In this document: positions 699 through 18,778 of the stretch, piece after piece
Layout of the letters: each line of letters opens with the position of its first letter
Numbering within the stretch: the first letter of the stretch is position 1
Assembly (NCBI GenBank): GCA_040757115.1
Contig: JBFLYA010000055.1
Location: 1 to 19,597 of the forward strand
Source of the DNA: a bacterium
GTDB taxonomy: Bacteria > UBA9089 > CG2-30-40-21 > SBAY01
DNA length: 19,597 nt
Direction of reading: 5' to 3'
Made by a program: the position numbers and the translations under genes
The notes under the pieces: generated by a model
Seen by the model: the letters and a program-made list of their open reading frames with translations, nothing else
What the model was told of the DNA's origin: nothing
The model's database searches: none

Positions 699-1544
699 TT
701 ATACCTCCCGTCTTGCCATAAAATTGGCAATGGTATTTAAAATCATAATGATAATGAATAAGACAATTCCTGTGGCAAACAGTGCCTGGCGGTGTTCTCC
801 AATAGCAAAACTCATTTCTAAGGCAATATTTGCTGTCAGGGTGCGAGCCGGGTCAAGTATTGAATCAGGAATGATAACTGAATTTCCAGCAATCATAATG
901 ACCGCCATTGTCTCTCCCACTGCCCGTCCTACACCGAGGATAATACCTGCAATAATGCCCGAGCGTGCCGCCGGGAGGACGACCATTTTTATTGTTTGCC
1001 ATCGCGTTGCCCCTAAGGCTAATGACCCCTCCCGATATAAATGTGGAACAGCCTTAAGTGAATCAATTGAAATACTGGTAATCGTCGGTAAAATCATTAT
1101 CCCAAGAATGATTGAGGCGGCTAAAATACAAGGTCCCGGCCCACCCAGATAATTACGAATCACTGGAAATAATATTACTATCCCCATAAATCCATAAACT
1201 ACGGATGGGATGCCCGCTAAAAGTTCAATTATTGGTTTAAGAATTTTACTTGTCTTCTGTGTGGAAAATTCAGCTAAGTAAATAGCACAGGCAAGACTTA
1301 ACGGCAGACTAAATATAAGAGCACCAACAGTTATCCATAATGAGCCCATAATCATTGGGAATATCTCAAATCTTCCTTCTCTGGGTGACCAATTAGTCCC
1401 ACAAATAAAATCCTTTATTCCTGCTTTTAGAATAATCGGCAATCCTTCTTTTAAGATAAATAAAGCGATTAAAATAAGGATAGCGATGGTTGAAAAGGCG
1501 GTAATTAACAAGCCAAACTGAATAAATCGTTCACGATACCTCAA
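699..1544 (-). CDS. pstC: Phosphate ABC transporter permease PstC
   Basis: A 281-residue polytopic inner-membrane protein. It has about six hydrophobic segments. The cytoplasmic EAA-type loop region reads EGSLALGATRWQTIK and is followed by GRAVGETMAV, both typical of Pst permeases. Features such as GIPSVVYGFMG and the C-terminal ILNTIANFMARR fit PstC better than PstA. With PstA it forms the channel through which phosphate released by PstS passes. The start codon is TTG (1542-1544), supported by AAGGAG eight bases upstream. A 158-bp MITE-like element sits in the space between it and pstS. Confidence 0.92.
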   Translation of the reverse strand: MRYRERFIQFGLLITAFSTIAILILIALFILKEGLPIILKAGIKDFICGTNWSPREGRFEIFPMIMGSLWITVGALIFSLPLSLACAIYLAEFSTQKTSKILKPIIELLAGIPSVVYGFMGIVILFPVIRNYLGGPGPCILAASIILGIMILPTITSISIDSLKAVPHLYREGSLALGATRWQTIKMVVLPAARSGIIAGIILGVGRAVGETMAVIMIAGNSVIIPDSILDPARTLTANIALEMSFAIGEHRQALFATGIVLFIIIMILNTIANFMARREV

Positions 1545-1597
1545 ATTTATTACTCCTTGTCCCTTGAACCTACGGTCTTACCTTGGGTAAATAATTA

Positions 1598-1755
1598 GTA
1601 AGCGTTCAGCCATCAGGTATCAGCAATCAGTTAACATCCAGGAAATCAGGATAGTAACAAATCCTACAATTTTGCGTAAAGGGTGTCTATGTGTCTGGTA
1701 GTCTATGTAACCCAGACACTTAGACACCCAGATACCAGACTACCTGAACGGTTAC
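1598..1755. mobile_element. MITE-like element, GTAAnCGTTCAG family, copy 1
   Basis: The ends are GTAAGCGTTCAG (1598-1609) and CTGAACGGTTAC (1744-1755), an 11/12 inverted repeat. The 8-bp direct repeat AATAATTA flanks it at 1590-1597 and 1756-1763, as expected of a transposition target duplication. The interior has another long inverted repeat (around GTCTGGTAGTC and ACCAGACTACC) and no coding capacity. It lies between pstS and pstC. Matching ends are found at 3420-3621, 10450-10689 and 12121-12609. Confidence 0.8.
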
Positions 1756-1767
1756 AATAATTACCAT

Positions 1768-2556
1768 TTATTTAACCGGAATCAATCCGTAGTCTGAGAT
1801 TAGTTGTTGCCCTTGTTCAGAAAGGATAAATTCTATAAATTCTCCTATTTTTCCTTCCGCTGGTCCTTTCGTAAGCAAGAAAATCGGTCGAATGATTTTA
1901 TACCTGCCTTTTTTGATATTTTGTAAGGTGGGCGACACTCCATCTATTTTTAAGGATTTTACCCTGTCAGTAACAAGTCCATAAGTGAGGTAACTAATAG
2001 AATTTGGGTCATTTTCAACCATTGTTCTAACAGCACCACTTGAATCCTGAATAAGAGCACCAGCACTAACTTTGGTTCCGGCTAACAGTAATTCTTCAAA
2101 GGAGACCCGTGTTCCAGAACCTTCTTCTCTTGAAATGACCGTAATTGGTTTATCTTCCCCACCTACTTCTTTCCACTTTTTTACCTGACCGCTAAATATT
2201 TGTTGGATTTGGAGTGGCGTTAAATTCGCAATTTTATTATTTGGATGAACAATCAACACCACGGCATCTTTTGCCACAACAACAGTATTCAATCCTTGCG
2301 CCTCTTTTGGCAATGTGACCATATCTGCCATACCAATTTGAGCCACACCGCTTTGTGCCGATTGAATTCCTACCGCAGAACCTCCTCCTTGAACATTAAT
2401 TCGAACATCATTCTTCCCTGCCATATATTCTTCCGCGAGTTTCTCTGCAAATGGTTGAAAAGCCGTCGAACCAGCTATATTTATCGTTTCAATATTAGAT
2501 TTTGCACATCCAATTGCCAGACAAGAAAATAACATACAAAAAATTAACCGATACAT
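1768..2556 (-). CDS. pstS: Phosphate-binding lipoprotein PstS
   Basis: A 262-residue substrate-binding protein of the phosphate ABC importer. The N-terminus is a lipoprotein signal (hydrophobic MYRLIFCMLFSCLAIGC, lipobox LAIGC with Cys17), so the protein should be anchored in a membrane facing outside the cytoplasm. PstS hallmarks follow: INIAGSTAFQPFAEKL, GGGSAVGIQSAQSG and SREEGSGTRVSFEEL, which contribute the phosphate-binding site. AAGGAGG on the minus strand supports the ATG at 2554-2556. It is first in the pst order pstS-pstC-pstA; dedA lies upstream on the same strand. No Pho-box was identified. Confidence 0.95.
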   Translation of the reverse strand: MYRLIFCMLFSCLAIGCAKSNIETINIAGSTAFQPFAEKLAEEYMAGKNDVRINVQGGGSAVGIQSAQSGVAQIGMADMVTLPKEAQGLNTVVVAKDAVVLIVHPNNKIANLTPLQIQQIFSGQVKKWKEVGGEDKPITVISREEGSGTRVSFEELLLAGTKVSAGALIQDSSGAVRTMVENDPNSISYLTYGLVTDRVKSLKIDGVSPTLQNIKKGRYKIIRPIFLLTKGPAEGKIGEFIEFILSEQGQQLISDYGLIPVK

Positions 2557-2576
2557 TCAAAAACCTCCTTCTTTTG

Positions 2577-2611
2577 TTGGTAATTGGTAACTGGTAAAAT
2601 GGTAATTAGCA
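2577..2611. repeat. GGTAAntGGTAAC-type short repeat between dedA and pstS
   Basis: The 84-bp dedA-pstS spacer contains tandem variants of GGTAATTGGTAACTGG. The same motif occurs in both orientations inside the element at 9731-9905 (about 9790-9870) and once near 4499. It probably belongs to the genome's repeat population. I see no gene in it. Confidence 0.45.
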
Positions 2612-2640
2612 TAATCTACCCTCAATACTCTTTTCCTTTC

Positions 2641-3264
2641 TTACTCACTACTCCTATGGTGAAGATGACGTTTAATAAAGATATAGAGTAAGATAATGAT
2701 ACATATACCTATTAAGACATCAAATTTATGGAATATAGGTGATAATGTTGAGTGCCATTTTGCTCCAAAAATCATCCCAAAGTATGTCAGAGCAATATTC
2801 CAGGGCACAGAACCAAGAGTGGTATAAAGACAGAATTTAAGGAAATTCATTTTGGCTATGCCAGCAGGCAATGAGATAAATGTTCTGATAACAGGCATAT
2901 TGCGGGTAAAAAATATGGTTAAGTCACCGTATTTGTTAAACCATCGCTCAGCTACATCCATATCATGCCGGGTCATCAGGATATATTTACCATATTTCAA
3001 GATAAAAGGTCTTCCTCCTATTAATCCAACCCAATAAGCGATGATTGACCCAACCAGGTTACCTAATGTGCCAGCAACCACTACCCAAAATATCTGAAAT
3101 CTACCTTCTGATATGAGATATCCTGAAAAAGGCATAATAATTTCAGAGGGTAGGGGAATACACGCACTTTCAATAGCCATAGCTATTCCTATTCCCCAAT
3201 ATCCTGCGGCATTAATAATTGCGACAACAATTGATGCTAAAAATTCAAGTATTTTTGTTACCAT
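2641..3264 (-). CDS. DedA family membrane protein
   Basis: A 207-residue integral membrane protein of the DedA/SNARE-associated family. Recognisable elements are ESACIPLPSEIIMPFSGYLIS (residues about 33-53), the conserved acidic/proline re-entrant region, and TRNMPVIRTFISLPAGIAKMNF, the conserved arginine-rich second motif. DedA proteins are inner-membrane proteins linked to lipid carrier recycling and envelope homeostasis; the substrate here is unknown. I chose the ATG at 3262-3264 because AGGAGAAG lies just upstream and the protein then begins MVTKILEFLAS. An earlier in-frame ATG at 3330 would add residues encoded by a repeat that also sits before the E2 gene. Confidence 0.9.
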   Translation of the reverse strand: MVTKILEFLASIVVAIINAAGYWGIGIAMAIESACIPLPSEIIMPFSGYLISEGRFQIFWVVVAGTLGNLVGSIIAYWVGLIGGRPFILKYGKYILMTRHDMDVAERWFNKYGDLTIFFTRNMPVIRTFISLPAGIAKMNFLKFCLYTTLGSVPWNIALTYFGMIFGAKWHSTLSPIFHKFDVLIGICIIILLYIFIKRHLHHRSSE

Positions 3265-3419
3265 ATCTTCTCCTGAAAATAAGGAAGTAGAAAGTAGAGA
3301 GTAGAAAGTAGAAAGTAAAGAAAACATCATTCCTCACGCCTATCTCCTTACCTCCCACCTTCTATCTCCTACCACTATTTTTCGACCTGTGAAATAGGTC
3401 GACATGGGAAAACAAAATC

Positions 3420-3621
3420 GTAAGCGTTCAGGTCATTGCGAGATATCTAATAATAATGTAAAATGGGCAATGTAAAATGAAAAATGTAAAATGAGAGGAT
3501 GGATGAAATGAAAGGTGATGATATTACTGAAAGACTAATTGACTTTACAGAATTGACTTTTAAATTTTTAATTGCTCATTTTACATTTTAGAGTTATTTT
3601 TTTAAGTAGCTGAACGCTTAC
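3420..3621. mobile_element. MITE-like element, GTAAnCGTTCAG family, copy 2 (nested)
   Basis: The ends GTAAGCGTTCAG (3420-3431) and CTGAACGCTTAC (3610-3621) are a perfect 12-bp inverted repeat. No flanking target duplication is evident. The element lies wholly inside the 3383-3686 element. Its interior has subterminal inverted AATGTAAAATG / CATTTTACATT tracts around a 30-codon reading frame that looks like a relic gene. Confidence 0.7.
3499..3591 (+). pseudogene. Probable relic of a four-helix-bundle (IVS-type) protein gene
   Basis: A 30-codon frame begins MDEMKGDDITERLIDFT, preceded by GAGAGG. This beginning resembles the N-terminus of the small four-helix-bundle proteins (23S rRNA intervening-sequence family) that often start M-x-x-D-D-I-x-E-R-L-x-D-F. 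After about 17 codons the sequence runs into the AT-rich terminal tract and stops, so the body of the gene is missing. I infer an internal deletion of a once gene-bearing element; a chance match is possible. Confidence 0.4.
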
Positions 3622-3769
3622 TCCTTTATTCTCTTATCCCCCTTCTTATATTAACCACGATCAAAATATTCCTATTTCACAGGTCGCTATTTTTTATCCT
3701 CCTTTGTGTCCACCCTGTGGACATGGCCGTTTCTCCTTTCTTACATCTGAAAGATGCAAGAGTTCACAT

Positions 3770-4477
3770 CTAAATTATTCTCAATATTGCGGGATTTCTT
3801 TGAGTGGAGAGACTTTTTAGGTCATTTATAATATTGACATATTCATCGACACCGCCCTGGACACCTTTTTCTCGTCTTTCTTCCTCAGTTATTTTAATTC
3901 TCCTGCCAATCACAGGTCCAGTGCCGGTATTTTCTCCAAACTGGTCTGTCAGTTCTACAACAGCTAAGCTTTCATCAAATATGGTCATATGTTGAAGTTT
4001 TCGACATAGAACGGGTTGCCATTCTTTAAATTCATTTCTTAAGATAACTATAATTTCGGCACGATTGTTTTCAAAGATTAATTCCCGACGATGGCTTCGG
4101 ATAATCTCTTTGACGCGGTCTTTACCAAATGTATCTTTGGACATAACAAAAAAGTGAAATATCTTTATCTGTCTATCTCTGCGTTGTAATAAGGCTTTAT
4201 TGATGGCTAACATTTTTTGCGGAAATCCTTCAGTTCGCCATCGCTCAACCCAAAAATCCACGCAGGCTAATTCTTTTTGTACCTCTTCTGATTCCTTTAA
4301 AAGTAAATTATACAATTCTCGTCTATCATCTATAAAACACCAACCTTTCTCGGACATATCTTTGGCTCGATGCAACCATTTATTTAATCCATCTTCGATA
4401 ATAGTTACTTCACGAATAGCAACTTTGCGTAAATATGGGTCATCAATACCATCTGCAATCTTTCTTAAATCTTCCAT
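3770..4477 (-). CDS. Unrecognised protein, 235 residues, divergent from the ubiquitin-like operon
   Basis: I do not recognise the family. The gene has a clear start (AAGGAGGA ahead of the ATG at 4475-4477) and no signal peptide or membrane segment, so it is probably cytoplasmic. The N-terminal 100 residues look helical and charged. The middle (about 105-175) alternates hydrophobic strands and helices: IKIFHFFVMSK, then RAEIIVILRNEF, then LQHMTIFDESLAVVEL. A Gly-rich stretch follows near residues 180-192 (FGENTGTGPVIG). It is transcribed away from the E1 gene across a 147-bp spacer, so the two could share control, but a functional link is only an inference. Confidence 0.75.
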   Translation of the reverse strand: MEDLRKIADGIDDPYLRKVAIREVTIIEDGLNKWLHRAKDMSEKGWCFIDDRRELYNLLLKESEEVQKELACVDFWVERWRTEGFPQKMLAINKALLQRRDRQIKIFHFFVMSKDTFGKDRVKEIIRSHRRELIFENNRAEIIVILRNEFKEWQPVLCRKLQHMTIFDESLAVVELTDQFGENTGTGPVIGRRIKITEEERREKGVQGGVDEYVNIINDLKSLSTQRNPAILRII

Positions 4478-4583
4478 ATTGAAAATCCTCCTTATATTTG
4501 GTAATTGGTTAGGATAATTTAACGAAATTATTTTAATGAATTAATAGCGATTTGTCAAGTAAAAAATTAATTTAAAAAATCAG

Positions 4584-4612
4584 TTGACGAATTAAATTAA
4601 ATAAGTTATAAT
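4584..4612 (+). promoter_or_regulatory. Strong sigma70-type promoter of the E1-RING-Ubl operon
   Basis: TTGACG (4584-4589), a 17-base spacer and TATAAT (4607-4612) are near consensus. Transcription would begin near 4619-4620, only about 5-6 bases before the E1 ATG at 4625. No ribosome site fits between, so the first gene is probably translated from a leaderless or near-leaderless mRNA. Confidence 0.8.
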
Positions 4613-4624
4613 TAATGTGCATTA

Positions 4625-5800
4625 ATGGAAGAAAAAATCGTCATTAGTGATTTAGATAAAGATAGATATTCACGATTGGGGCTTATTCCCTGGTGGAATC
4701 AGGAAAAGCTGAAAAACACATTGGTTATGGTTGTTGGCGTTGGTGCATTAGGAAATGAGGTTGTAAAAAACTTAGCCCTTTTAGGCGTAGGGAAAATAAT
4801 TATTGTTGATTTTGACCAGATAGTCAATGCTGATTTAACCCGCTCTGTTCTTTATCGAAAAGAAGATGATGGTAAAAAAAAGGTTGAAATAGCGGCAGAA
4901 AGAATTCAAGAAATTAATCCTGAGGTTAAAATACAACCTTTAGCCGGAAATATCCTCTGGGATGTAGGATTAGGGATATTTAGACAAGTAGATATAGTTA
5001 TTGGTTGTGTGGATAACCGTGAGGCAAGATTAGCTATTAACCAGGCTTGCTGGAGAACAAATACCCCATGGATTGATGGAGGAATAGATGTCTTAAATGG
5101 AGTAGTAAGTATCTTTTGCCCACCAGAAAACGCATGCTATGAATGCACCTTGACAGATTTAGATTATAATATTCTCGGCGTCAGATACTCCTGCCCATTA
5201 CTTAGATATGATGATTTATTAGAAGGAAAGACACCTACAACCTCAACTATTGCCTCGATTATTGCTGGAATTCAAGTTCAGGAGGCAATAAAATTAATCC
5301 ATTGTCTTGAAGTCCCAAAAGGAAAAGGAATAGTTTTTAATGGATTAACCTATGAATGCTATCTTATTGAATATTCTAAAAAAAATGACTGCTTAAGTCA
5401 TGAATATTATGCAGAAATTGTTGAATTGAATAAAGGAGTAGAAAATACTACATTTAGAGAATTACTTGAATTAGCCCGGGAATCACTGGGTAAAGAGGTT
5501 ATATTAGAATTAGACCGAGATATAGTCACTAAATTACACTGTAGTAAATGCCAGGAAGATACGAATATTTTTAAAGTATTAGGTAAGGTAACCATAGAAG
5601 ACGGCAAATGTCCAAAATGTGAAGGGATAAGAAATGTAAGTATGACCAATATAATTTCTCTTGAGGAGAAATTTATAGATAAAAATTTAGCAGAGGTAGG
5701 AATTCCCCCATTCCACATCATTGGAGCAAGAAATGGTAAAAAGACTAAATATTTCGAACTTACTCAAGATAGGAAAAAGACTTTAGGGGAGGTAGTGTAG
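4625..5800 (+). CDS. E1-like (ThiF/UBA family) activating enzyme of a ubiquitin-like system
   Basis: A 391-residue ThiF/MoeB/UBA-type adenylating enzyme. The Rossmann nucleotide loop is VVGVGALGNEVV (G38, G40, G43). D62 and D64 lie in IIIVDFDQ, N68/D70/R73 in NADLTRS, K84-K86 follow, and D130 lies in GCVDN. These residues bind ATP and the C-terminus of a ubiquitin-like protein. C171-x-x-C174 pairs with later CxxC motifs (C306/C309 and C329/C332) as zinc ligands. C190 in RYSCPLLR precedes TPTTSTIASIIAG and could be the thioester cysteine. The C-terminal 140 residues form an added zinc-ribbon-containing domain not found in minimal MoeB/ThiF. It is directly followed by RING, Ubl and E2 genes, which argues for protein conjugation rather than sulfur transfer. 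Confidence 0.9.
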   Translation: MEEKIVISDLDKDRYSRLGLIPWWNQEKLKNTLVMVVGVGALGNEVVKNLALLGVGKIIIVDFDQIVNADLTRSVLYRKEDDGKKKVEIAAERIQEINPEVKIQPLAGNILWDVGLGIFRQVDIVIGCVDNREARLAINQACWRTNTPWIDGGIDVLNGVVSIFCPPENACYECTLTDLDYNILGVRYSCPLLRYDDLLEGKTPTTSTIASIIAGIQVQEAIKLIHCLEVPKGKGIVFNGLTYECYLIEYSKKNDCLSHEYYAEIVELNKGVENTTFRELLELARESLGKEVILELDRDIVTKLHCSKCQEDTNIFKVLGKVTIEDGKCPKCEGIRNVSMTNIISLEEKFIDKNLAEVGIPPFHIIGARNGKKTKYFELTQDRKKTLGEVV

Positions 5801-6013
5801 ATGTTTAATTTATTTGGGGCTAATAAGCCAACGCCTGTGTTATTAGTTTATTCGCAAACACCAATTGAGTGTGCGTATTGTCATACACCAGTAAAAACAG
5901 AAAGTATAGTTGTCAGATGTCCTATGTGTAACACCATTCACCATCCACAATGTTGGAAAGAAGGAAAAGGGTGTAGTGTTTTTGGTTGTAAAAATGCGCC
6001 GAAGAAAAAATAA
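5801..6013 (+). CDS. Small RING-like zinc protein, candidate E3
   Basis: A 70-residue protein that is almost entirely a binuclear zinc domain. The ligand pattern is C24-x2-C27, C40-x2-C43, H47/H48 and C51, C58 and C63, a C4HC3 arrangement like prokaryotic RING and RING-CH cross-brace domains. W52 after the sixth ligand is also typical. Its start follows the E1 stop codon without a gap, with GGGGAGG inside the end of the E1 gene, so translation is probably coupled. In this setting it is the natural E3 candidate, recruiting the charged E2 at 6530-7039. No substrate-binding domain is present; it could also serve as an adaptor. Confidence 0.82.
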   Translation: MFNLFGANKPTPVLLVYSQTPIECAYCHTPVKTESIVVRCPMCNTIHHPQCWKEGKGCSVFGCKNAPKKK

Positions 6014-6030
6014 TTTGGAGGAAAAAAATA

Positions 6031-6300
6031 ATGAGAATTGTTAATATTGAAATAGAAGATGTGACAGGGGCTAAAAGGCAACGAGCGGACATCCCGGATG
6101 ATGTCCCATTAAAAAGGGTTATTTCCGCTTTAGTTTCAAAAATGAAGTTGCCAACAGTTAGCCCAAGTGGTTCTCCGTTGAATTATCAATTACATCATAA
6201 AGCATCAGGTAGGTCTTTAAGTGAAAGTGATACATTAGCCAGTGCAGGAATACGAGAAGGAGCTGTTTTGAAAATACATCCCGTTGTTGTCGCTGGATAA
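6031..6300 (+). CDS. Ubiquitin-like beta-grasp protein
   Basis: An 89-residue protein with beta-grasp pattern: an N-terminal strand pair (MRIVNIEIEDVTGAKRQRAD), a helix around VPLKRVISALVSKM, the strand YQLHHKASGRSLSE and the terminal strand GAVLKIHPVVV. This matches the YukD/EsaB-like ubiquitin-fold group. It ends in ...VVVAG, a single glycine at the extreme C-terminus, so it would not need trimming before activation by the E1. Few lysines lie in the second half. TTTGGAGG supports the ATG. It stands between the RING and E2 genes, making it the probable modifier of the pathway. Confidence 0.85.
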   Translation: MRIVNIEIEDVTGAKRQRADIPDDVPLKRVISALVSKMKLPTVSPSGSPLNYQLHHKASGRSLSESDTLASAGIREGAVLKIHPVVVAG

Positions 6301-6311
6301 TTAGATGAGGA

Positions 6312-6361
6312 AGGTTAAGGTTAGGGAAGAGAAAGTCTCCTCTTCTTCCCTTCCTTAACCT
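6312..6361. terminator. Long hairpin after the Ubl gene
   Basis: AGGTTAAGG (6312-6320) pairs with CCTTAACCT (6353-6361). GGGAAGA and TCTTCCC extend the stem, and the loop is near 6335-6341. AAATCTTTT follows, a weak U-tract. It could attenuate transcription between Ubl and E2, or be a repeat relic. Confidence 0.45.
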
Positions 6362-6368
6362 AAATCTT

Positions 6369-6529
6369 TTATGGAGAAACGGATATGCTAACCCGCTGGC
6401 ATAAAGGACAATGAAAATAGTAGGTAGGAGATAGAAGGTGGGAGGTAAGGAGATAGGCGTGAGGAGTGATGTTTTCTTTACTTTCTACTTTCTACTCTCT
6501 ACTCTCTACTTCCTATTTTCAGGAGAAAG
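6369..6529 (+). repeat. 160-bp leader repeat, copy 2 (uninterrupted)
   Basis: This is the inverted, intact counterpart of the repeat before dedA. It runs from ATGGAGAAACGG through AAAGGA, AAAATAGT, the purine tract and the CTTTCTACT tract to TTTTCAGGAGAAAG at the E2 start. It holds the E2 ribosome site. A tiny frame MLTRWHKGQ (from 6386) corresponds in position to MSTGWTQRR in copy 1; whether it is translated is unknown. It shows the pre-insertion state of the element at 3383-3686. Confidence 0.85.
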
Positions 6530-7039
6530 ATGGAATATCAATCCCCAAGAAATTTACGATTAGAAGAAGATTATAAAAAGATGCAAGAATTGGTGAAAAA
6601 AAGCCCATTTATTACCTTTGAAGTCTCTGGTGATCCACCTAACAGGTATATTATTAACTATACCTGTCGAGGATTAAGGTTAGATGAGATAAGTAAACAG
6701 GTAATTATTGCTAATTTTCATCAAGTAGAAATTTATCTACCAACCGCTTATCCCAGAATAAGACCAAATTTAGAGTGGCTGACACCAATATATCATCCCA
6801 ATATTGGAACAAATAATCAAGTCTGTCTTGGTGGTTGGGCACCTTCAGAAAGTCTGGATAGACTTTGTGTCCGATTAGGGGAGATGATTCAATATAAGAA
6901 TTTTGATGAATATGACCCAATAAACGCCAGTGCCGCGGCCTGGGCTTTGAAAAATCACGATAAATTACCTATTGACCCACGACCATTAGAGGCGGATGAA
7001 CCACAATTAAAAGGAGCATACGAAATTAAATTATCATAA
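6530..7039 (+). CDS. E2-like ubiquitin-conjugating (UBC fold) enzyme
   Basis: A 169-residue protein with a UBC core. YPRIRPNLEWL (74-84) corresponds to the E2 YPxxxP strand. H89-P90-N91 is the HPN motif and C99 in NNQVCLGGW is the catalytic cysteine, at the same spacing from HPN as in eukaryotic E2s (N+8). W103 follows, as in many E2s. Helices flank the core at both ends. It would receive the modifier from the E1 and work with the RING protein. The ATG follows AGGAGAAAG supplied by the leader repeat. Its distance from Ubl (229 bp) and JAB (512 bp) is due to inserted repeats; otherwise the five genes form one operon in one direction. Confidence 0.92.
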   Translation: MEYQSPRNLRLEEDYKKMQELVKKSPFITFEVSGDPPNRYIINYTCRGLRLDEISKQVIIANFHQVEIYLPTAYPRIRPNLEWLTPIYHPNIGTNNQVCLGGWAPSESLDRLCVRLGEMIQYKNFDEYDPINASAAAWALKNHDKLPIDPRPLEADEPQLKGAYEIKLS

Positions 7040-7059
7040 TCAGTGAACAGTGCTGTACC

Positions 7060-7527
7060 TGTTTAGCGTGGTCAGAGAGCACAAATGAATGGTACTGACT
7101 TAGTGCGAAACCACTTCAAACACAACAAATTGTGTAATACAAAATCAAAAATTAAATATTAAAATGCAAAATGACATATCAAATATCAAAAAATCTTGAC
7201 TTCGTGTTTAATTTATTGCCTTACAAGTATACAGGTTTGCAAAAACTTTCTTGAAAGAATTCAAGGGGTCAAGGGATCCAGGGGTCGAGTGAACACCTTA
7301 TTTTTCACCTTCCTTGAATCCTTGACCCCTCGAATCCTTGATCCCTTTTTAGAGCAAAATATTTGCAAACTCAATTTATTTGGGTATATTTTTGCATTTT
7401 GCTTTGTCCTTTTGATTTTTACATTTTGATATTTGCATTAAACTCCTTGTGGAATATTTCGCACCAGTATCCTATTGTTTAACAAAGGTTACTTCTCAAA
7501 TCAACGCAATTTGGAACACTCTAAACA
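7060..7527. mobile_element. 468-bp insertion between the E2 and JAB genes
   Basis: The ends TGTTTAGCGTG (7060-7070) and CACTCTAAACA (7517-7527) form a 10/11 inverted repeat. TGTACCTG occurs at 7054-7061 and 7528-7535, giving a 6-8-bp direct repeat across the junctions. Removing the element leaves a spacer of about 45 bp between E2 and JAB. Inside lie further nested inverted repeats: GTGCGAAA / TTTCGCAC, AT-rich AAATGCAAAATG-type tracts, and a core with CAAGGGGTCAAGGGATCC-like arms. I see no gene in this 512-bp gap; the frame at 7196-7429 is repeat sequence. Confidence 0.72.
7348..7388 (+). repeat. 41-bp exact repeat, copy 1
   Basis: A 41-bp sequence beginning TTTAGAGCAAAATATTTGC and ending TTTGGGTATA. 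It recurs exactly at 10397-10437. Here it is the right arm of the inner inverted repeat of the 7060-7527 element. Confidence 0.85.
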
Positions 7528-7551
7528 TGTACCTGAATTAGGAGAGTTTGA

Positions 7552-8208
7552 ATGAATACCTTTTCAAATGATGAGGAAATATTAAAAATTAGACTAACAA
7601 ACGAAGAGATAGTTAAACCTATCCCTGAAAAAATGCCACTACATAATCCAAATTATGCCATTAGATTATGTGTGGATAAACCAGAATATGCCTTGAAGAT
7701 ATTTGTTCCTATAGAGATAATGAAGCAGATACTTGATTACTCTAAAAAAGATACTACTCGAGAATTAGGTGGGGTCTTAATTGGTGATTATTGCCTTGAT
7801 AATAAGATTAAATCTATAAAAATATCGGATTTTATTGAGGCAAGAAATACTCAAGGTGACAATAGTCATATTAGATTTAACCATGAGACATGGAATGCGA
7901 TTGAACAGGAGAAAAAAACAAAGAAAATTCCTGAAGGAAAACAGATGGTCGGTTGGTTTCATACACACCCTGGCTGGGGAATATTCCTTTCAGAGGATGA
8001 TTTATTCATTCATCAAAATTTCTTTAATCTTCCCTGGCAGGTAGCAATGGTCGTTGACCCGCTTCAAAAAGAACAAGGATTTTTTATCTGGGAAAATGAT
8101 AAAATTATAAAATCAAGGGATTTTTATCTTTATACTATAAAAGAAAGGGAGAGTGAACTAATATCTTTTGTCCATTCACTTTCTCAAAGTAGAAAACTTG
8201 ACCGATAG
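7552..8208 (+). CDS. JAMM/JAB-domain metallopeptidase (deconjugase candidate)
   Basis: A 218-residue protein with a complete JAMM zinc-peptidase signature. E71 lies in RELGGVLIG. H137-T-H139-P-G, then S147 and D150, fit H-x-H-x7-S-x2-D. These residues bind catalytic zinc and activate water in isopeptidases such as Rpn11. The first 35 residues precede the domain and look disordered. AGGAGAG precedes the ATG. In this operon it is expected to remove the ubiquitin-like protein from targets; since that protein already ends in glycine, a maturation role is less likely. A 468-bp insertion separates it from E2, and pdxJ follows 55 bp later. Confidence 0.92.
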   Translation: MNTFSNDEEILKIRLTNEEIVKPIPEKMPLHNPNYAIRLCVDKPEYALKIFVPIEIMKQILDYSKKDTTRELGGVLIGDYCLDNKIKSIKISDFIEARNTQGDNSHIRFNHETWNAIEQEKKTKKIPEGKQMVGWFHTHPGWGIFLSEDDLFIHQNFFNLPWQVAMVVDPLQKEQGFFIWENDKIIKSRDFYLYTIKERESELISFVHSLSQSRKLDR

Positions 8209-8263
8209 AAAATAAGTTGATAAGGCAGAAACTTGTTTTCTTGTTTCTTTAAAAGGAGGAATT

Positions 8264-8980
8264 ATGCCAAAACTTGGAGTAAATGTTGACCATGTGGCAA
8301 CAGTCAGACAGGCACGAAAAGTTAAAGAACCGAACCCAATTATTGCCGCAATGATTGCTGAACTCGCTGGTGCGGATTCTATTGTCGTCCATTTAAGAGA
8401 AGATAGAAGGCATATTCAGGAACGCGATGTGCGAGTTTTACGCGAGATAATTACGACTAAGCTAAACTTAGAAATGGCCTCTACAGACGCTATGGTAAAA
8501 TTTGCCCTATCTTTAAAACCTGACCAGGCAACTTTAGTTCCGGAGCGCCGTGAAGAATTAACCACCGAAGGTGGTTTAAATGTTATTGAAAATAAAGAGA
8601 ATTTAGCCTCAGCCGTTAATTTATTACAAGATGCGGGAATTGTTGTCAGTTTATTTGTTGACCCGGATATTTCACAGATTAAAACCTCCTCAAAGATAAA
8701 TGTTACTGCGATAGAATTACATACTGGAAACTATGCTAATGCTACCAGTCCTCAACAGGCTCAAGAAGAATTAGAAAAATTAGAGGATGCCGCTTCTTTT
8801 GCCATAAAACAAGGTTTAGTCGTCAATGCTGGTCATGGGTTGAATTATCAAAATGTTATACCAATCGCTTCCATTCACGGAATAAATGAACTGAACATAG
8901 GACATTCAATCATTGCCCGGGCGATTTTAGTTGGGATGGACGAGGCAGTAAGAGAGATGTTGGAACTTGTAAGGAGATAG
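8264..8980 (+). CDS. pdxJ: Pyridoxine 5'-phosphate synthase
   Basis: A 238-residue TIM-barrel enzyme that condenses 1-deoxy-D-xylulose 5-phosphate with 3-amino-2-oxopropyl phosphate to form pyridoxine 5'-phosphate. Family blocks are [19 protein letters not shown] at the N-terminus, [46 protein letters not shown] and [11 protein letters not shown]. Length is normal. AAAAGGAGGA supports the start. Its presence shows that vitamin B6 is made by the DXP-dependent route. The next gene begins 10 bp after the stop. A short CTTGTTTTCTTGTTTC motif upstream resembles the repeat flanking the GxxExxY unit. Confidence 0.97.
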
Positions 8981-8989
8981 AGACAAAAA

Positions 8990-9691
8990 ATGTTAAAACC
9001 AGAAGATTTCTTTGATTTGTCTCATTTTGGACATAAAGCAATATTTGAAGATGTAGAGTATGTTTGGGAAGTATTGAAGAAAATCGAAACTTACATTAAG
9101 CAGGTGATTAAACCGCAGATTTCAGGCACAATTATGGATGGTGCGTTTTTAATCGGCGATAATATCCAGATTGGAAAAGGAACAGTAGTCGAACCAGGTG
9201 CTTTTATTGCTGAACCTACCATTATTGGCAAAAATACACAGATTAGACAGGGGGCTTATGTCCGCGGGAGTGTTATTGTTGGAGATGAATGTGTCGTTGG
9301 TCATACGACCGAAATGAAGAATGCGATTATGTTAAATAAGGCTAAAGCAGGTCATTTTGCCTATATTGGCGATTCTATTTTAGGAAATGAGGTTAATTTA
9401 GGGGCAGGAACTAAACTGGCTAACTTTAAATTTGAAAATCTCTCATCCACCGTAGATGTAAGGTGTAACGATAAAATTTATAAAACAGGATTGAGAAAAT
9501 TCGGTGCTATCTTAGGAGATAAAACCGAAACAGGTTGTAATTCAGTGATGACACCAGGTACTCTTTTGGGACCTAAATCCATTGTCTATCCTAATACTAC
9601 CGTTAAAGGTTATTATCCTGCTCATTCCATTATAAAATTAAGACAAAATTTAGAAGTAATTATTCAGCCACTGATTAGCACGGATAAATAA
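8990..9691 (+). CDS. Left-handed beta-helix (hexapeptide) protein, GlmU C-domain-like
   Basis: A 233-residue protein. The first 45 residues form a helical lead-in (MLKPEDFFDLSHFGHKAIF). Hexapeptide turns of a left-handed beta-helix run from about 48 to 125 (IMDGAFLIGDNIQIGKGTVVEPGAFI and so on), and more follow at 165-215. Such domains are found in GlmU and in sugar-nucleotide acyltransferases; this protein lacks a pyrophosphorylase domain. GlmM is encoded about 1 kb downstream, which makes UDP-GlcNAc or related sugar metabolism plausible, but the substrate is unknown. The last 12 codons (VIIQPLISTDK and stop) coincide with a repeat-element end, so the natural C-terminus seems to have been replaced. 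Confidence 0.82.
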   Translation: MLKPEDFFDLSHFGHKAIFEDVEYVWEVLKKIETYIKQVIKPQISGTIMDGAFLIGDNIQIGKGTVVEPGAFIAEPTIIGKNTQIRQGAYVRGSVIVGDECVVGHTTEMKNAIMLNKAKAGHFAYIGDSILGNEVNLGAGTKLANFKFENLSSTVDVRCNDKIYKTGLRKFGAILGDKTETGCNSVMTPGTLLGPKSIVYPNTTVKGYYPAHSIIKLRQNLEVIIQPLISTDK

Positions 9692-9727
9692 ATAGATAGC
9701 AGAAGATAGAGGTCAGAAGACAAAAGT
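9656..9727. repeat. Left end of a GTAAnnnTTCAG element overlapping the beta-helix gene
   Basis: GTAATTATTCAGCCACTGA at 9656-9674, followed by GCACGGATAAATA and a GCAGAAGATAGAGG tract, resembles 12132-12240 over about 70 bases. No matching right end is visible before the next element at 9731. It looks like a truncated insertion whose first bases now encode the end of the upstream protein. Confidence 0.6.
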
Positions 9728-9730
9728 TAG

Positions 9731-9905
9731 TGTGGTGTTGAGTAAGTTTTGCACGGCGTATCATCAGATTTCATAACCTGCAAACGGATAACTGGTAACT
9801 GGTTAAATAGTTTCGTCCTGAGATCAGCCAAACGGTATTTAATTACCAGTTACCAATCACCAGTTACCAGAATCAAATTCCGTGCGTTATTTGTTCAACA
9901 CGACA
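9731..9905. mobile_element. 175-bp MITE-like element with 26-bp imperfect ends
   Basis: The 26-bp ends (9731-9756 and 9880-9905) match as inverted repeats at 19 positions, with shared blocks GTGTTGA and GCACGG. A 4-bp TTAG occurs immediately on both sides. The interior holds an inverted GGTAACTGGT / ACCAGTTACC pair and no gene. It lies between the beta-helix and aspartic protease genes. Confidence 0.6.
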
Positions 9906-9957
9906 TTAGAAGATAGATGAGAACGGAGATTCGCAAAATTAGAGGGAGGTAAAGATA

Positions 9958-10383
9958 ATGGGAAAAATTATGGTAAGGATGAGAATAAGAAACCTTTTTG
10001 ATGAAGTAAGGGCAAAGAGTGGACTAATTAAAGAGGAGGAAGTCAGGGATATTACGGTTAATAATGCCCTGGTTGATACAGGGGCAACAATGCTTTCTCT
10101 ACCTATAACCCTTATTGAGGAATTGGGGCTTGAACAATCTGGAACAAGAGAGGTTAGAACAGCAAATGGTATAGTTACAAGAAGGGTCTTTAGTGAAGTA
10201 AGAGCTGAAATTCAAGGAAGAGAAGGAGGATTTCAGGTTTTAGAGCTGCCAGTAGATGTTGTGCCTCTGGTTGGTCAGATTGTCCTTGAGCAGCTTGACT
10301 TATACCCTGACCCCCAGAATCAAAGACTTACTGGAAGACCAGATGCCCCTGACCATATGGTGGTGGAATGCTATCTATCTTGA
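9958..10383 (+). CDS. Retropepsin-like (clan AA) aspartic protease
   Basis: A 141-residue protein with the single-domain aspartyl protease signature ALVDTGATMLSLP: D40-T41-G42-A43 is the catalytic D-T/S-G triad. A Leu-Gly-containing segment near VVPLVGQIVLEQLDL (about 96-110) corresponds to the second conserved hydrophobic-glycine element of retropepsins. With one triad per chain it must dimerise to be active. GAGGGAGGTAAAG before the ATG is a good ribosome site. No signal peptide or membrane helix is present. Such proteins are widespread in bacteria with unknown substrates; some neighbour toxin-antitoxin genes, which is not so here. Confidence 0.85.
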   Translation: MGKIMVRMRIRNLFDEVRAKSGLIKEEEVRDITVNNALVDTGATMLSLPITLIEELGLEQSGTREVRTANGIVTRRVFSEVRAEIQGREGGFQVLELPVDVVPLVGQIVLEQLDLYPDPQNQRLTGRPDAPDHMVVECYLS

Positions 10384-14025: not shown

Positions 14026-14847
14026 ATGGACAAAATACATCCAAATAATAAATTAAATGATTTACCAGGGGATAAATGGATTTTTTTAACCCAGTCTGTT
14101 ATTAAAACAAATTATCCCAAAAATCACGGATTTTTACTTCGTCAGCAACACGGTGCAAATAAACCACCAGAACTTATGAAAGATTTGATTCTATTTTTTA
14201 CTAAAAAAGACTCAACGGTTTTTGATCCTTTTGCAGGGGTTGGAGGAACTTTATTAGGTGCATCTTTATGTGGGAGAAAAGCTTTAGGAGTTGAGATAAA
14301 CCCAAAATGGATTTCAATATATAAAGAAGTATGCAAAGATGAAAATATTAAGCAACAAGAGATTATTGAGGGTGATTGTCTTGAGATAATGGATGCTCTT
14401 ATACATGCGAAAAAAAAGTTTAGTCTGATTCTTACAGATCCTCCCTACAATATTAATCTTGAAAGAACAATGTGCCGTGGGGACTATCCTAATAGAAATA
14501 GACATACAGATTTTAAAGAGTTTTCTAAATATGCCCAAGATTTCAGCAATTGTAAAACATATGAACACTATTTAGATAAGATGGCACTTTTTATTGAAAG
14601 AAGTTTTAAGTTGCTATTCAAAAATAAATATTTGATAATACTGACTAAAAATGCTTACCAAAATGGCAAATATATATTAGTAAACCAAGATATAGCAAAA
14701 ATAGCACAATCTCGCGATTTTACTTTGAAAGGTGAAATCATCTGGTGTCAAAATGGTGTTCGTTTACGTCCCTATGGTTATCCGTTCAGCTATGTACCAA
14801 ATATAATTCATCACAACATACTTATCTTTAAAAAAGAGGTGTTATAA
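14026..14847 (+). CDS. DNA methyltransferase (N6-adenine/N4-cytosine type)
   Basis: A 273-residue S-adenosylmethionine-dependent DNA methyltransferase. Motif I is FDPFAGVGGTLLGA (D67-T75, AdoMet binding), preceded by the motif X-like HGANKPPELMKDLI (42-55). The catalytic motif IV is TDPPYN (137-142). The order X-I-IV differs from the usual beta-class order. No endonuclease or specificity gene is adjacent, so it either marks self DNA or modifies DNA as part of the mechanism of the following genes. GAGG lies seven bases before the ATG. Its stop overlaps the next start (TAATG), making the first of three translationally linked genes inside cassette B. Confidence 0.9.
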   Translation: MDKIHPNNKLNDLPGDKWIFLTQSVIKTNYPKNHGFLLRQQHGANKPPELMKDLILFFTKKDSTVFDPFAGVGGTLLGASLCGRKALGVEINPKWISIYKEVCKDENIKQQEIIEGDCLEIMDALIHAKKKFSLILTDPPYNINLERTMCRGDYPNRNRHTDFKEFSKYAQDFSNCKTYEHYLDKMALFIERSFKLLFKNKYLIILTKNAYQNGKYILVNQDIAKIAQSRDFTLKGEIIWCQNGVRLRPYGYPFSYVPNIIHHNILIFKKEVL

Positions 14848-17426
14848 TGGATCTACCCCGTAATCCTTTCGATATCATAAGAACTGAAGATTTTAATACC
14901 AATTATAAAATCATAGCTCAATATTTTAGTGACCCACATGCTACTTATTATTCAAATCTGACAAGAAGAGGAAATGTAATTCTTGTTGGTACACGCGGGT
15001 CTGGTAAGACGATGCTATTAAAATCATTATATCTCCCAGTGCAAATTGAAATCATGAAGAAAGAAGGTAAAGACCCATGCACTCATTCATTAGATTTTAT
15101 TGGGATATTAGTTAATTGTGAGAGGTATGAGTTTAAGATATTCCGAGAAAATATTTACAGTTATCAGATGGAGCATAATAACGAAGAAAAAATAAGGTAC
15201 TTCTGGAAACAATGTATGGGACATTACTTTGCTCTTTTTATAATTGAGGAAATGCTAAACACAGTTATTAATTATGGAGCAGATATTGGATTAAACTTGC
15301 AAGACCCATTATATGAAATATTATCAAACCAAATCTGTGAGATATGTCGTATAGAACTATCTGCCTCTTTTGATTCTTTAGGTGATATATTAAAAAGGAA
15401 ACGATTAGAGTTTTCACAACTACTTTCAATGTCTATACTTAATTTAGATTATTCCATTGCGAACAACCGCTTCGATTTATCTGCGGTTATTGAAGTTGGC
15501 AATACCTTAAAGAAAATCCCAAGATTCAAAAATGCAAGATTTTATATCCTGTTAGATGACTTTTTCTATCCAAATTTAGCTGATGAGCAACAAAAAATTC
15601 TTCTGGAATTAATTCGGGTAAGGAATGAACCTCTTGCTTTCAAAATAGCGACACTCCCTGGAGGTATGGTATTTACAGATGCCAGTGGATTTGAATTAAT
15701 GGGGCGAGGTGATGATTTTACTATTGAGTCCATAGAATATTCTGAATTAGGAGAAAGAAGTGATTATTATAAACTCATTAAAGACATAGTTAATAATCGT
15801 GTGAAAGACTATGAATTAGTAGCTGATGATCTATTTCAAAAAAGCAATGATACTATAAAAGATTTTTTGTCAAAACTAAAAGGGGAAGTAGGAAAAGGTC
15901 ATATTAGACCTGAATATGCAGGATTTGATAGTTTAGTCCATATGAGTTCCGGTGTTGTTAGAACATTCTTAGTATTAGCTAAAAAAATCTTGGATAAACA
16001 GCTACAGCAAAAAAATGCAGAGCGATTAGATAGAACTATTTTACCTATCCCAGTTGATATTCAGTCAGAAGTGGTATATTCAGAATCTTCACTATTTTTA
16101 GATGCAATTGCGAGTAGAGAAAAAGGATCACTTATATCAAAGATTGTTTATTTTGTTGGTAATGAATCAAGGCAAAAACTCTTAAATAATCAAGTCGCTA
16201 ATGAGTATATACAATTGCAAATAAAAAATTATGTTGATATTAAACCAGAAGTACAAGAGATACTAACTAAAGCAGTAACCAATAATGTTTTCCATACATA
16301 CCAGTTATCCCATAGAACAACAAGAAGAGGAGCAGTATCTATAGAGTCCCTTATCCTTAACAGACTATTAACTCCTGCATTAAGAATCCCTTATCATGAT
16401 CGGTGGCGGATGGATATAGATGCACAACAAATTAATAAGATACTTGGTGATATTGCTCCGATTGACATTTCTTACCACAAACCGCAACCACAAAAGAGTT
16501 TTATTAGTCAATATTGTCCAGTAATATCTGGTGACTGTGATAGAATAGACCCAAATCTTAAAGAAGATGGTTGCTTTTATGCCTCACCAATAAGAAACGA
16601 TTGGACATCTTTCGCAAAAGATTTATTTAAGAAGCAATTTTCTAAATTTGAAGTTGCAATTGAACAGCCACCAAAGGGTGATTTAACCTGCAAAATCTGT
16701 GAGATGATACATAATGCCCATTTTGGTATATACGAATTAACAGATCTTAATGAAAATGTAGTCTTTGAACTTGCCCTTGCATTATCTCGAGAAAAACATT
16801 GTTTTTTTGTTGCTAACACTGAATATCCGGTAGAGCAAATTGAGGCTATGCTGGGCAAAGAGTATATACCTTATCAGGTAGTAGATAGTGAAATTGAAAA
16901 ACTGTGTCAAGAAAAAATTCTTCCTATTGTAAATTCTGGAGATGAACCATGGAATACAAAGATAATAAAAGGAATAAATACTGTTCCTGCAAACAAAACT
17001 GTATTACTGGCTATGCCAAAAGAATCTCTTTATTATGAGAAAACATTAACCAATGGAGTCAAAGACATTTTAGAGAAAGAATTAGGTTTGGAAGTAATCA
17101 TTCCTTCTCAATATTCTATCGGCAATTGGTTCTCGAATTTAGTTAATGATGTAAAAAGAACAAAATATTGTTTCATTGATACAACTTTACCGAGTCAATA
17201 TAATAACTTTAATGGAAGATTTTCGCCTAAAGAACTTGATTATTTACAAAGAGTATTCATATTCGGACTTAGCGTTGGTTTTAGAAAAATAATTTTACAT
17301 GGATATAATACTGCATATAGTAAAAAGATATTTACAGATATGCAAGGACATTGCCATTTTGAATATTCTGATTCCAAACTGTTTGAAGAGATTAGAAAAA
17401 GGGTACCAGAGGTGTTCCATGAATAA
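14847..17426 (+). CDS. Large P-loop ATPase with tandem nucleoside-deoxyribosyltransferase/TIR-like domains
   Basis: An 859-residue cytoplasmic protein. The N-terminal ATPase has Walker A VGTRGSGKT (47-55) and Walker B FYILLDDFF (232-240), resembling ORC/CDC6- or STAND-type modules; a helical region extends to about 550. CPVISGDC (557-564) leads into a first C-terminal Rossmann-like domain. It starts CFYASPIRNDW (576-586) and contains NENVVFELALALSREKHCFFVAN (635-657), like the NxNVxxELG signature of nucleoside 2-deoxyribosyltransferases, with E641 the probable catalytic glutamate. A second, degenerate copy (717-855; KTVLLAMP, YCFIDTT, VFIFGLSVGFRKIILH) lacks that glutamate. I infer an NTP-driven sensor coupled to a nucleotide-cleaving effector. 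RBS AAAGAGGTG lies inside the preceding gene. Confidence 0.8.
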   Translation: MDLPRNPFDIIRTEDFNTNYKIIAQYFSDPHATYYSNLTRRGNVILVGTRGSGKTMLLKSLYLPVQIEIMKKEGKDPCTHSLDFIGILVNCERYEFKIFRENIYSYQMEHNNEEKIRYFWKQCMGHYFALFIIEEMLNTVINYGADIGLNLQDPLYEILSNQICEICRIELSASFDSLGDILKRKRLEFSQLLSMSILNLDYSIANNRFDLSAVIEVGNTLKKIPRFKNARFYILLDDFFYPNLADEQQKILLELIRVRNEPLAFKIATLPGGMVFTDASGFELMGRGDDFTIESIEYSELGERSDYYKLIKDIVNNRVKDYELVADDLFQKSNDTIKDFLSKLKGEVGKGHIRPEYAGFDSLVHMSSGVVRTFLVLAKKILDKQLQQKNAERLDRTILPIPVDIQSEVVYSESSLFLDAIASREKGSLISKIVYFVGNESRQKLLNNQVANEYIQLQIKNYVDIKPEVQEILTKAVTNNVFHTYQLSHRTTRRGAVSIESLILNRLLTPALRIPYHDRWRMDIDAQQINKILGDIAPIDISYHKPQPQKSFISQYCPVISGDCDRIDPNLKEDGCFYASPIRNDWTSFAKDLFKKQFSKFEVAIEQPPKGDLTCKICEMIHNAHFGIYELTDLNENVVFELALALSREKHCFFVANTEYPVEQIEAMLGKEYIPYQVVDSEIEKLCQEKILPIVNSGDEPWNTKIIKGINTVPANKTVLLAMPKESLYYEKTLTNGVKDILEKELGLEVIIPSQYSIGNWFSNLVNDVKRTKYCFIDTTLPSQYNNFNGRFSPKELDYLQRVFIFGLSVGFRKIILHGYNTAYSKKIFTDMQGHCHFEYSDSKLFEEIRKRVPEVFHE

Positions 17427-18405
17427 CATTCTCAAATACTTTGAAGCGGGTAGACCAAATATCTATTTTTGTGGATACGGTTTTGAAGAGAGATCCATTG
17501 GTTTGCTTTCTATTATTCGTGGAAAAGCATCATTTGACTACGCCTTTTCTATTGGATTTCCCTCGTCATTTTTAGGAACTACCCTTCTTTGGAGACAAAA
17601 TAAAGCATTTACTGATGATTGTCTTGCCACAATGGCTAAAAATTATGAAGTCATAGATATATCTGTAAAACAACCAGTTGAGGTAAGACAAAATCTAAAT
17701 GAGAAAATAAAAAAGTTTAATTTAAACTTTCAGAAATTTAAAACAATTGTAGATATAACTTCATTTCCTAAATCAACATTATTTATGCTTTTAAAAGAAT
17801 TAGTTGAGTCTAAAGCTTCTGGCTATCTTTTTTATATAGAGCCTATTGATTATGAACTTCCAATCTCTTTGGGTGTTAAAGACATCAGAACTTTGCCCTT
17901 TTTTGGTGATAACTACGACTCAAAGAAACAAAAATTACTTATTGAAATATTGGGGTTTGAGGGGCTTAGAGCCTATGCGATATGGGAGACATTTGATCCA
18001 CATAAAACAATAGCATTTATTGGAGTGCCATCTTTATTGAATCAAAAATGGAAGAATATTGCTGAACAGGAAAATGGATTGCTTCTATCTAGACCAAATG
18101 TTATCAAGAGAGAAATTTCCTTTACTAGTATTGAAGAGGCTACCAATACCTTAGAAGAAATATATGAAGAAGAGGGTGATAAATACAACATAATTGTAAG
18201 TTCATTGGGGACGAAACTTTCAGCTATATCACTTTTTTATTTTGCAAATCGCCATAAGAATGTATTTGTTACATTTTCTAGGCCTGAGGAACATACGGAA
18301 CACTATTCATATGGTTGCAAGAAATTGATTGTCATTGCTTTCAATTGTAAGGCTGCTGATGTTATAGATTCGTATGATTTTAAAAATAAAAATGAAAATG
18401 AATAA
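17419..18405 (+). CDS. Unrecognised FEERS-motif protein, Rossmann/CARF-like in outline
   Basis: A 328-residue protein with no family I can name. It begins with strand-loop NIYFCGYGFEERSIGLL (14-30). It later has TIVDITSFPKSTLFMLL (109-125) and NIIVSSLGTKLSAISLFYF (257-275), where a hydrophobic strand runs into a Gly/Ser/Lys loop and then a helix. This pattern suggests two Rossmann-like sheets that bind a nucleotide or small ligand, possibly CARF-like; this is inference. No membrane segment or signal. AGAGGTG lies ahead of the ATG, and its start overlaps the ATPase stop by eight bases. The stop codon is two bases from the inverted end of cassette B. Confidence 0.78.
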   Translation: MNNILKYFEAGRPNIYFCGYGFEERSIGLLSIIRGKASFDYAFSIGFPSSFLGTTLLWRQNKAFTDDCLATMAKNYEVIDISVKQPVEVRQNLNEKIKKFNLNFQKFKTIVDITSFPKSTLFMLLKELVESKASGYLFYIEPIDYELPISLGVKDIRTLPFFGDNYDSKKQKLLIEILGFEGLRAYAIWETFDPHKTIAFIGVPSLLNQKWKNIAEQENGLLLSRPNVIKREISFTSIEEATNTLEEIYEEEGDKYNIIVSSLGTKLSAISLFYFANRHKNVFVTFSRPEEHTEHYSYGCKKLIVIAFNCKAADVIDSYDFKNKNENE

Positions 18406-18406
18406 T

Positions 18407-18757
18407 AAGCAAAACGGTCGCCTAACAGCGTGTTTACGCAAGGGCTAAAGCCACATTGCTCCCTACGGTCGCAACGTCGTAACCACGCAAATCGATAACC
18501 AAAATGTCGTTTCGCTCCATTTGGGTTATCGGGATGCGGATGAGCGAAAGGCGGAAGCTTTATGTAACTCAAAGGGGATTTTTTGAAAAAGGGAAGTTGC
18601 GCTGCGTCACTTCGGCTATCAGCGGCGGCGGGGCACCCACGAAGTGGGTCGCGCTTGCGGGTCGGGGCTGAAGCCAAAACTTGTAGTGAGCCTGTCGAAC
18701 CTATGCCCCTGTGGAGCACTTCGCTCATCCGCATCCCGTTATACGCAATGCCGTGCC
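18407..18757. repeat. Long attC-like recombination site 2
   Basis: From inverse core GCCTAAC (18420-18426) to core GTTATAC (18738-18744), 325 bp. It has the same plan as site 1: a first stem of different sequence (GCGTGTTTACG / CGTAACCACGC), the short hairpin GATAACC...GGTTATC, then the same perfect 17-bp pair (18532-18548 / 18720-18736). The body is highly similar to site 1 but has different inserts in the loop (about 18640-18715). Ahead of it, AAGCAAAACGGTCGCCTAAC is complementary to the start of cassette B at 13977. There is no other gene in this 373-bp gap. Confidence 0.7.
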
Positions 18758-18778
18758 TAAAGAAATTTGGAGGTAAAG

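Follow-up and report, generated by a model that had tools for sequence, protein, structure and literature searches.

We analysed a 19,597-nucleotide stretch of DNA (the window; GenBank assembly GCA_040757115.1, contig JBFLYA010000055.1) that constitutes an entire contig of a 4.3 Mb, 99.9% complete bacterial genome, from an order that includes Candidatus Desantisbacteria CG2_30_40_21. The window encodes an activating enzyme (E1), a RING-type zinc finger protein, a ubiquitin-like protein (Ubl), a conjugating enzyme (E2) and a JAB/JAMM metalloprotease. The best overall explanation, to which we assign a probability of roughly 0.8, is that these genes form a complete Ubl-conjugation cascade that is likelier to be a resident pathway than an antiphage cassette. 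Most of the bacterial Ubl-conjugation systems that have been tested are phage-defence cassettes and, to our knowledge, RING-assisted conjugation has not been reconstituted from the present bacterial family. The set is compact (five small proteins), carries all catalytic residues and belongs to a large multi-phylum family, and would offer a simple test of whether an E1–E2–RING cascade serves everyday physiology in bacteria; its interest lies in the breadth of that family, the slow evolution of the modifier and its testability.

The locus and its distribution across bacteria

All five open reading frames (ORFs) lie on the forward strand where the initial annotation had placed them (Table 1). Each has a Pfam match, and the key residues that had been listed as intact were found so on checking. 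The description of the set as one operon stands for the E1, RING and Ubl genes, which are only 0–17 nucleotides apart; the gaps that precede the E2 gene (229 nucleotides) and the JAB gene (512 nucleotides) leave the term certain for those first three genes only.

Table 1. Positions of the cascade genes and of two associated features in the window
Feature	Position	Strand	Evidence
E1-like Ubl-activating enzyme, 391 aa	4625..5800	+	Pfam ThiF 1.6e-51; AlphaFold2 (AF2) model; invariant columns
Small stand-alone C4HC3 RING-type finger, 70 aa	5801..6013	+	Prok-RING_1 1.8e-7; AF2 model; structural matches (VIA)
Single-domain Ubl of the YukD-like branch, 89 aa, C-terminus ...VVVAG	6031..6300	+	YukD 6.7e-13
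E2 Ubl-conjugating enzyme, 169 aa	6530..7039	+	UQ_con 1.3e-9; phmmer
JAB/JAMM metalloprotease, Rpn11-type, 218 aa	7552..8208	+	Pfam JAB 3.2e-12
pdxJ (pyridoxine 5'-phosphate synthase), syntenic neighbour outside the cascade	8264..8980	+	Neighbours the set in the window and in five relatives of its order
97-nt interspersed repeat copy in the Ubl–E2 gap, outside the cascade	6423..6519	+	Repeat search

A scan of genomes with an E1 alignment recovered at least 474 E1 relatives, the best 80 of which were annotated with purpose-built hidden Markov models, together with the loci of relatives from the window's order. All five classes occurred together in 39 of the 43 E1 loci having enough flanking DNA (15/15 in Chloroflexota, 10/10 in Bacillota, 9/11 in Planctomycetota and 5/7 in other phyla). 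Their co-occurrence in such distant phyla indicates that they make up one set, of which the RING protein is a regular member; a RING partner had been thought less usual, and in this family it is instead the norm. A literature search found nothing on Desantisbacteria in connection with ubiquitin, nor for a bacterial RING. At L091 (10043-10912) and at 12 further loci, mostly from Bacillota, a gene for a trypsin-like serine protease lies next to the operon. One bacterium with the operon, Clostridium weizhouense (L070), is culturable.

Predicted properties of the five proteins

The E1 comprises a single ThiF-type adenylation domain (about residues 10–261) followed by a C-terminal beta-grasp domain that resembles a ubiquitin-fold domain (UFD; about residues 262–380). 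C190, proposed at the outset as the candidate catalytic cysteine, is invariant in 71 of 71 members of the E1 family, as are a first zinc site (C171/C174/C256/H259) and a second one within the UFD-like domain (C306/C309/C329/C332). The AF2 model of the protein has a predicted local distance difference test score (pLDDT) of 91.9 and a predicted template modelling score of 0.90; the pLDDT falls below 50 in the loop that contains C190 (residues 188–192), which may indicate a mobile loop of the kind that a transfer cysteine needs, with C190 placed in a flexible crossover loop. Structural matches to MoeB and ThiF (VIA, Z about 32) cover residues 10–261 only. The match to the SUMO E1 (9dqb_B) runs from residue 15 to 382 (312 residues, Z 29.2, root-mean-square deviation 3.9) and those to UBA1 and UBA7 likewise extend to residue 380, the UFD region drawing matches from UFD-bearing E1s alone. 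Because only such E1s align through residue 380, the C-terminal extension, previously described as a zinc ribbon, is best read as a predicted UFD with a zinc site of four invariant cysteines. The UFD is the E2-recruiting part of eukaryotic E1s.

The phylogeny of the E1 had been named beforehand as a test of whether it groups with the sulfur-transfer proteins MoeB and ThiF, and it does not. In a maximum-likelihood tree, MoeB, ThiF and UbaA form one group (support 100/99) that is distinct both from the bacterial E1s and from eukaryotic UBA1/UBA7; the UBA rows are partial and the branches long, and we therefore claim no specific eukaryotic sister group. The window's own genome encodes two full-length ThiF proteins, this E1 and the E1 of a second operon described below, a third ThiF match being a sub-threshold fragment.

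The zinc ligands of the small finger protein are spaced as C24-x2-C27-x12-C40-x2-C43-x4-H48-x2-C51-x6-C58-x4-C63, in agreement with the C4HC3 order originally assigned. The protein exceeds the Prok-RING_1 cut-off (31.4 against 29.1 bits) and also gives weak Pfam matches to PHD_4 and C1. The top matches of its AF2 model (pLDDT 87) by VIA are RING E3 ligases solved together with E2s (ZNRF1, Z 6.3; RNF165; RNF12; RNF38), with PHD and C1 domains remaining near RING in the structural match lists. A hydrophobic residue precedes C27 in 65 of 65 family fingers and W52 is kept in 64 of 65; by motif position these would correspond to an Ile and a Trp of an archaeal cascade, mutation of which damaged that cascade (PMC5654768). 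C4HC3 is, according to a review, the prokaryotic RING layout (PMC11354881). The finger likely acts as an E3; described more cautiously, it is a candidate E3 or E2 cofactor.

The E2 carries an HPN motif at residues 89–91, with C99 eight residues past the Asn, which confirms the canonical spacing noted earlier; comparison of the HPNxnC region and of loop 7 across the family places a WAP motif in its loop 7. Its phmmer matches are Ubc13, Ubc4 and UBE2N at about 1e-6. In the JAB protein, E71 can be added to the H137, H139, S147 and D150 already recognized, and every one of the 116 family JABs has an intact JAMM pattern. The nearest JAB sequences with solved structures are those of proteasomal Rpn11 (2.4e-9) and then of Caldiarchaeum Rpn11 (2.3e-7).

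Two variations on the E2 were seen elsewhere in the family. A second E2-like protein without the HPN...Cys arrangement, possibly a UEV-like partner, is encoded near the E1 in L050, L075, L083, L087, L097, L099, L103 and L104, mostly from Planctomycetota. An FHA domain is fused to the E2 in L047 (8158-9867), with similarly long E2s in other Clostridia loci, and an FHA domain is encoded near the operon in L062 (5131-6147); this link hints at control by phospho-threonine.

The Ubl ends in Ala88-Gly89. The terminal Gly is present as annotated, but what had been called a single-Gly tail is better described as a near-invariant Ala-Gly, which is kept in 88 of 89 complete Ubl domains (the sole exception is in Crinalium, and one further Ubl is truncated). 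The chain stops at this dipeptide in 41 cases, continues into a tail in 33 and into a fused E2 in 14, although misread starts or stops in draft genomes may account for some of the tail lengths. A removable tail or fused E2 after a fixed Ala-Gly implies maturation by the JAB protein: such an extension would mark a modifier that needs trimming, for which the adjacent JAB is the obvious protease. Searched against PDB sequences, the family Ubl profile matches the whole of the Caldiarchaeum Ubl and part of ubiquitin; the Ubl itself matches YukD and the Caldiarchaeum Ubl and not ThiS or MoaD. In L048, L057, L062, L063 and other Chloroflexota loci, a Ubl–E2 fusion after the Ala-Gly is accompanied by a second, free Ubl, an arrangement like that of ubiquitin fusion precursors.

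Gene order, divergence and the nature of the pathway

The JAB end of the set lies by pdxJ in six genomes of the order, the window included (where the JAB gene and pdxJ are 55 nucleotides apart), either directly or with another JAB and a STAND/TPR ATPase in between. Candidatus Desantisbacteria CG2_30_40_21 (L029) has the same operon as a relative from a sister family (L022, genome G007), and in L022 the second, intact JAB and the ATPase occupy positions 1430-5356, between the operon's JAB and pdxJ. In a sister genus E1–RING is separated from Ubl–E2–JAB–pdxJ, and in genome G005 E1–RING–Ubl is separated from E2–JAB; all parts of the cascade are thus kept in sister lineages although unlinked. The gene set is chromosomal in the window's order. 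Of 50,697 phage records none contained the E2, and of 72,556 plasmid records a single one did, from Crinalium; the E2 matched no viral contig, and the E1 gave one partial match only. A mobile cassette was rejected, given the absence of the E2 from the phage collection and the single plasmid match.

Of all parts of the cascade, the Ubl changes most slowly within lineages; ubiquitin is likewise slow to change. Between the window and G006/G007, from a different family of the same order, identity is 88% for the Ubl, 70–71% for the E2, 67% for PdxJ, 57–60% for the E1, 57–61% for the RING protein and 43–47% for the JAB. Among 403 pairs with E1 identity of at least 60%, conservation of the Ubl exceeds that of the E1 in 393 and that of the E2 in 395; the pairs are non-independent, but the pattern is seen repeatedly within lineages. 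Across phyla, Ubl identity drops to about 40% and its greater conservation relative to the E1 no longer holds.

We infer catalysis, thioesters, E3 activity, conjugates and function along the following lines. The E1 would use ATP to adenylate the Ala-Gly C-terminus of the Ubl and would then hold the Ubl as a thioester on C190; its UFD would dock the E2, and the Ubl would pass to C99 of the latter. The RING protein would bind the charged E2 (E2~Ubl) and promote transfer to amino groups of target proteins, from which the JAB would strip the Ubl again. In relatives with a tailed or E2-fused Ubl, the JAB would first expose the Ala-Gly end.

That the genes encode a real conjugation cascade seems very probable; that its role is resident rather than defensive is favoured by a smaller degree of belief, somewhat above even. 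For this lineage we favour a resident pathway of protein modification or quality control over a mobile antiphage cassette, because the set is chromosomal, lies with its JAB end beside pdxJ, has been kept after the operon split and is nearly absent from phage and plasmid records; the initial annotation had mentioned that some such operons act against phage, and nothing local points in that direction. A defence role is hardest to square with two observations, the extreme conservation of the modifier and the fact that all parts outlasted the break-up of the operon. A broader proposal, in which a vertically kept bacterial ubiquitin system with a near-frozen Ala-Gly modifier, a UFD-bearing E1, an E2 and a dedicated RING E3 would serve general protein control rather than phage defence in several phyla, is held tentatively and at less than even odds.

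Several observations weigh against the reading of the locus as a complete, resident cascade, in addition to the non-independence of the 403 pairs. The system is dispensable, since neither G004 nor most of the phylum yielded an E2 match. The structural match of the finger to the RING fold is modest (VIA, Z about 6), C1 domains score almost equally well, and across the finger family the linchpin and C8 ligand positions are both variable. The slow change of the Ubl could stem simply from the many contacts that so small a protein makes with enzymes, and Bacillus subtilis YukD, of the same Pfam family, has been reported to be unconjugated (PMC1779556). The genome's sole PF00227 match reads as HslV and no other proteasome-family match was found, on which basis a 20S proteasome was rejected as a sink for conjugates.

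The same cascade could instead defend against phage in the manner of Bil or type II CBASS (cyclic-oligonucleotide-based antiphage signalling system), the host being protected by Ubl placed on phage or immune proteins. The best-studied bacterial Ubl-conjugation operons (Bil and the CBASS E1–E2) are indeed antiphage (PMC12687455), a cluster of CARF6, ORC-CDC6-like and TIR genes is found at the far end of the window, and the second operon of the same genome (on G000:C3) was found in no relative, as would be expected of an accessory system. We nevertheless consider this unlikely, given the vertical placement by pdxJ, the retention past the operon split, the slow Ubl and the near-absence from plasmids and phages; moreover, PADLOC models matched none of RING, Ubl and E2, and a distance of more than 5 kb separates pdxJ from the defence-like genes. 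Very improbable is a sulfur-carrier or cofactor pathway, with an E1 acting like MoeB/ThiF and a Ubl bearing a thiocarboxylate. It would suit an adenylation domain that, taken alone, is structurally nearest to those proteins and a C190 located in a short loop rather than in a Cys domain of its own, but it offers no role for a UFD, an HPN/Cys E2, a RING protein or an Rpn11-type JAB, and the Ubl resembles YukD and the Caldiarchaeum Ubl rather than ThiS/MoaD; it was rejected on the E1 tree and the partner genes.

The finger presents a different question, as conjugation by the E1 and E2 could be real and the finger a PHD/C1-like adaptor or a structural zinc finger, with the E1/E2 pair picking the targets. 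The C4HC3 ligand order is common to PHD and RINGv domains too, the weak PHD_4 and C1 matches and the C1 domains near the structural top fit such a role, and in other phyla the finger terminates longer proteins. This alternative appears doubtful, if a serious one, when set against the top matches to RING E3s solved with E2s, the conserved E2-contact positions whose counterparts are needed in the archaeal cascade (PMC5654768), and the assignment of C4HC3 to prokaryotic RINGs (PMC11354881).

Relation to known systems and neighbouring sequences

Burroughs, Iyer and Aravind reportedly predicted, in 2011, bacterial operons of RING, a YukD-like Ubl, an E1 with a UFD, an E2 and a JAB. The window most likely holds a member of this group: it has the same five classes, the YukD-like Ubl and the operonic RING, together with an E1 that has a loop Cys and a UFD, an exposable Gly, an HPN/Cys E2 and a JAMM motif. 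Beyond those predictions are the near-invariant Ala-Gly end with its tails or E2 fusions, the zinc site of the UFD, the slow modifier, the unlinked but kept genes and the pdxJ synteny in the window's order.

The suggested likeness to the Caldiarchaeum set is well founded, both having a stand-alone Ubl, an E1, an E2, a small RING protein and an Rpn11-type JAMM protease. The pro-Ubl (CsUb) of the Caldiarchaeum subterraneum E1/E2/srfp/Rpn11 system has a nine-residue tail, as in L024 and L030 (HGVQIDRLK in the latter). That system differs in its Gly-Gly tail and RING-H2 (C3H2C3) finger (PMC5654768, PMC6043591), where Ala-Gly and C4HC3 are found here; the archaeal E1 has a separate Cys domain of roughly 60 residues (PMC11354881) in place of a short flexible loop, and Caldiarchaeum is an archaeon whereas the present host is a bacterium. 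The archaeal analogue has been reconstituted in vitro, where the small RING protein was required, and complete operons have been noted in some bacteria (PMC5654768).

BilABCD has in common with the present set a Ubl, an E1, an E2, a JAB deubiquitinase and pre-processing of the Ubl by that enzyme. BilA contains two tandem Ubl domains, unlike the single 89-aa domain here, and BilD an inactive N-terminal and an active C-terminal adenylation domain (PMC11354881), unlike the one ThiF stretch of the 391-aa E1; a RING protein is present here. MoeB, ThiF and UbaA share with the E1 the adenylation fold, a CxxC zinc site and a C190-like loop cysteine, but form a separate clade and are without a UFD, an E2 or a RING partner. 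By its sequence features the locus is neither Bil nor Bub. Bub systems use oxyester (Ser) intermediates and a serine protease, in contrast to the Cys active sites (C190, in 71/71; C99) and JAMM protease found here. A large share of them have adjacent regulators (CapW, CapH+CapP or CapK+CapS). The Bub operons, 544 of which are listed (PMC13373217), are widespread and are not known to stop phage.

A second, strongly diverged set is encoded in the same genome at L018 (G000:C3:6000-24000; 3538-10218, reverse strand), with an E1 (432 aa) that was found in no relative, a transmembrane protein that ends in a RING-like segment, a 371-aa protein, an N-extended E2, a JAB protein with a transmembrane segment and a coiled coil.

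Directly upstream of the window's E1 is a divergent 235-aa ORF (3770-4477, reverse strand), a possible regulator that is also present in the same-genus genome G001; at E 1, neither Pfam nor PADLOC gave a family match for its product. The 97-nucleotide repeat has about 50 near-identical copies genome-wide, and a second, inverted copy at 3277-3373 forms with the one in Table 1 a pair that brackets the E1–RING–Ubl part. Farther downstream, the window contains an ORF for a retropepsin-like aspartyl protease (9958-10383) and, at 14026-19258, a row of methyltransferase, ORC-CDC6-like ATPase, CARF6-type and TIR-domain genes that form a separate candidate defence cluster.

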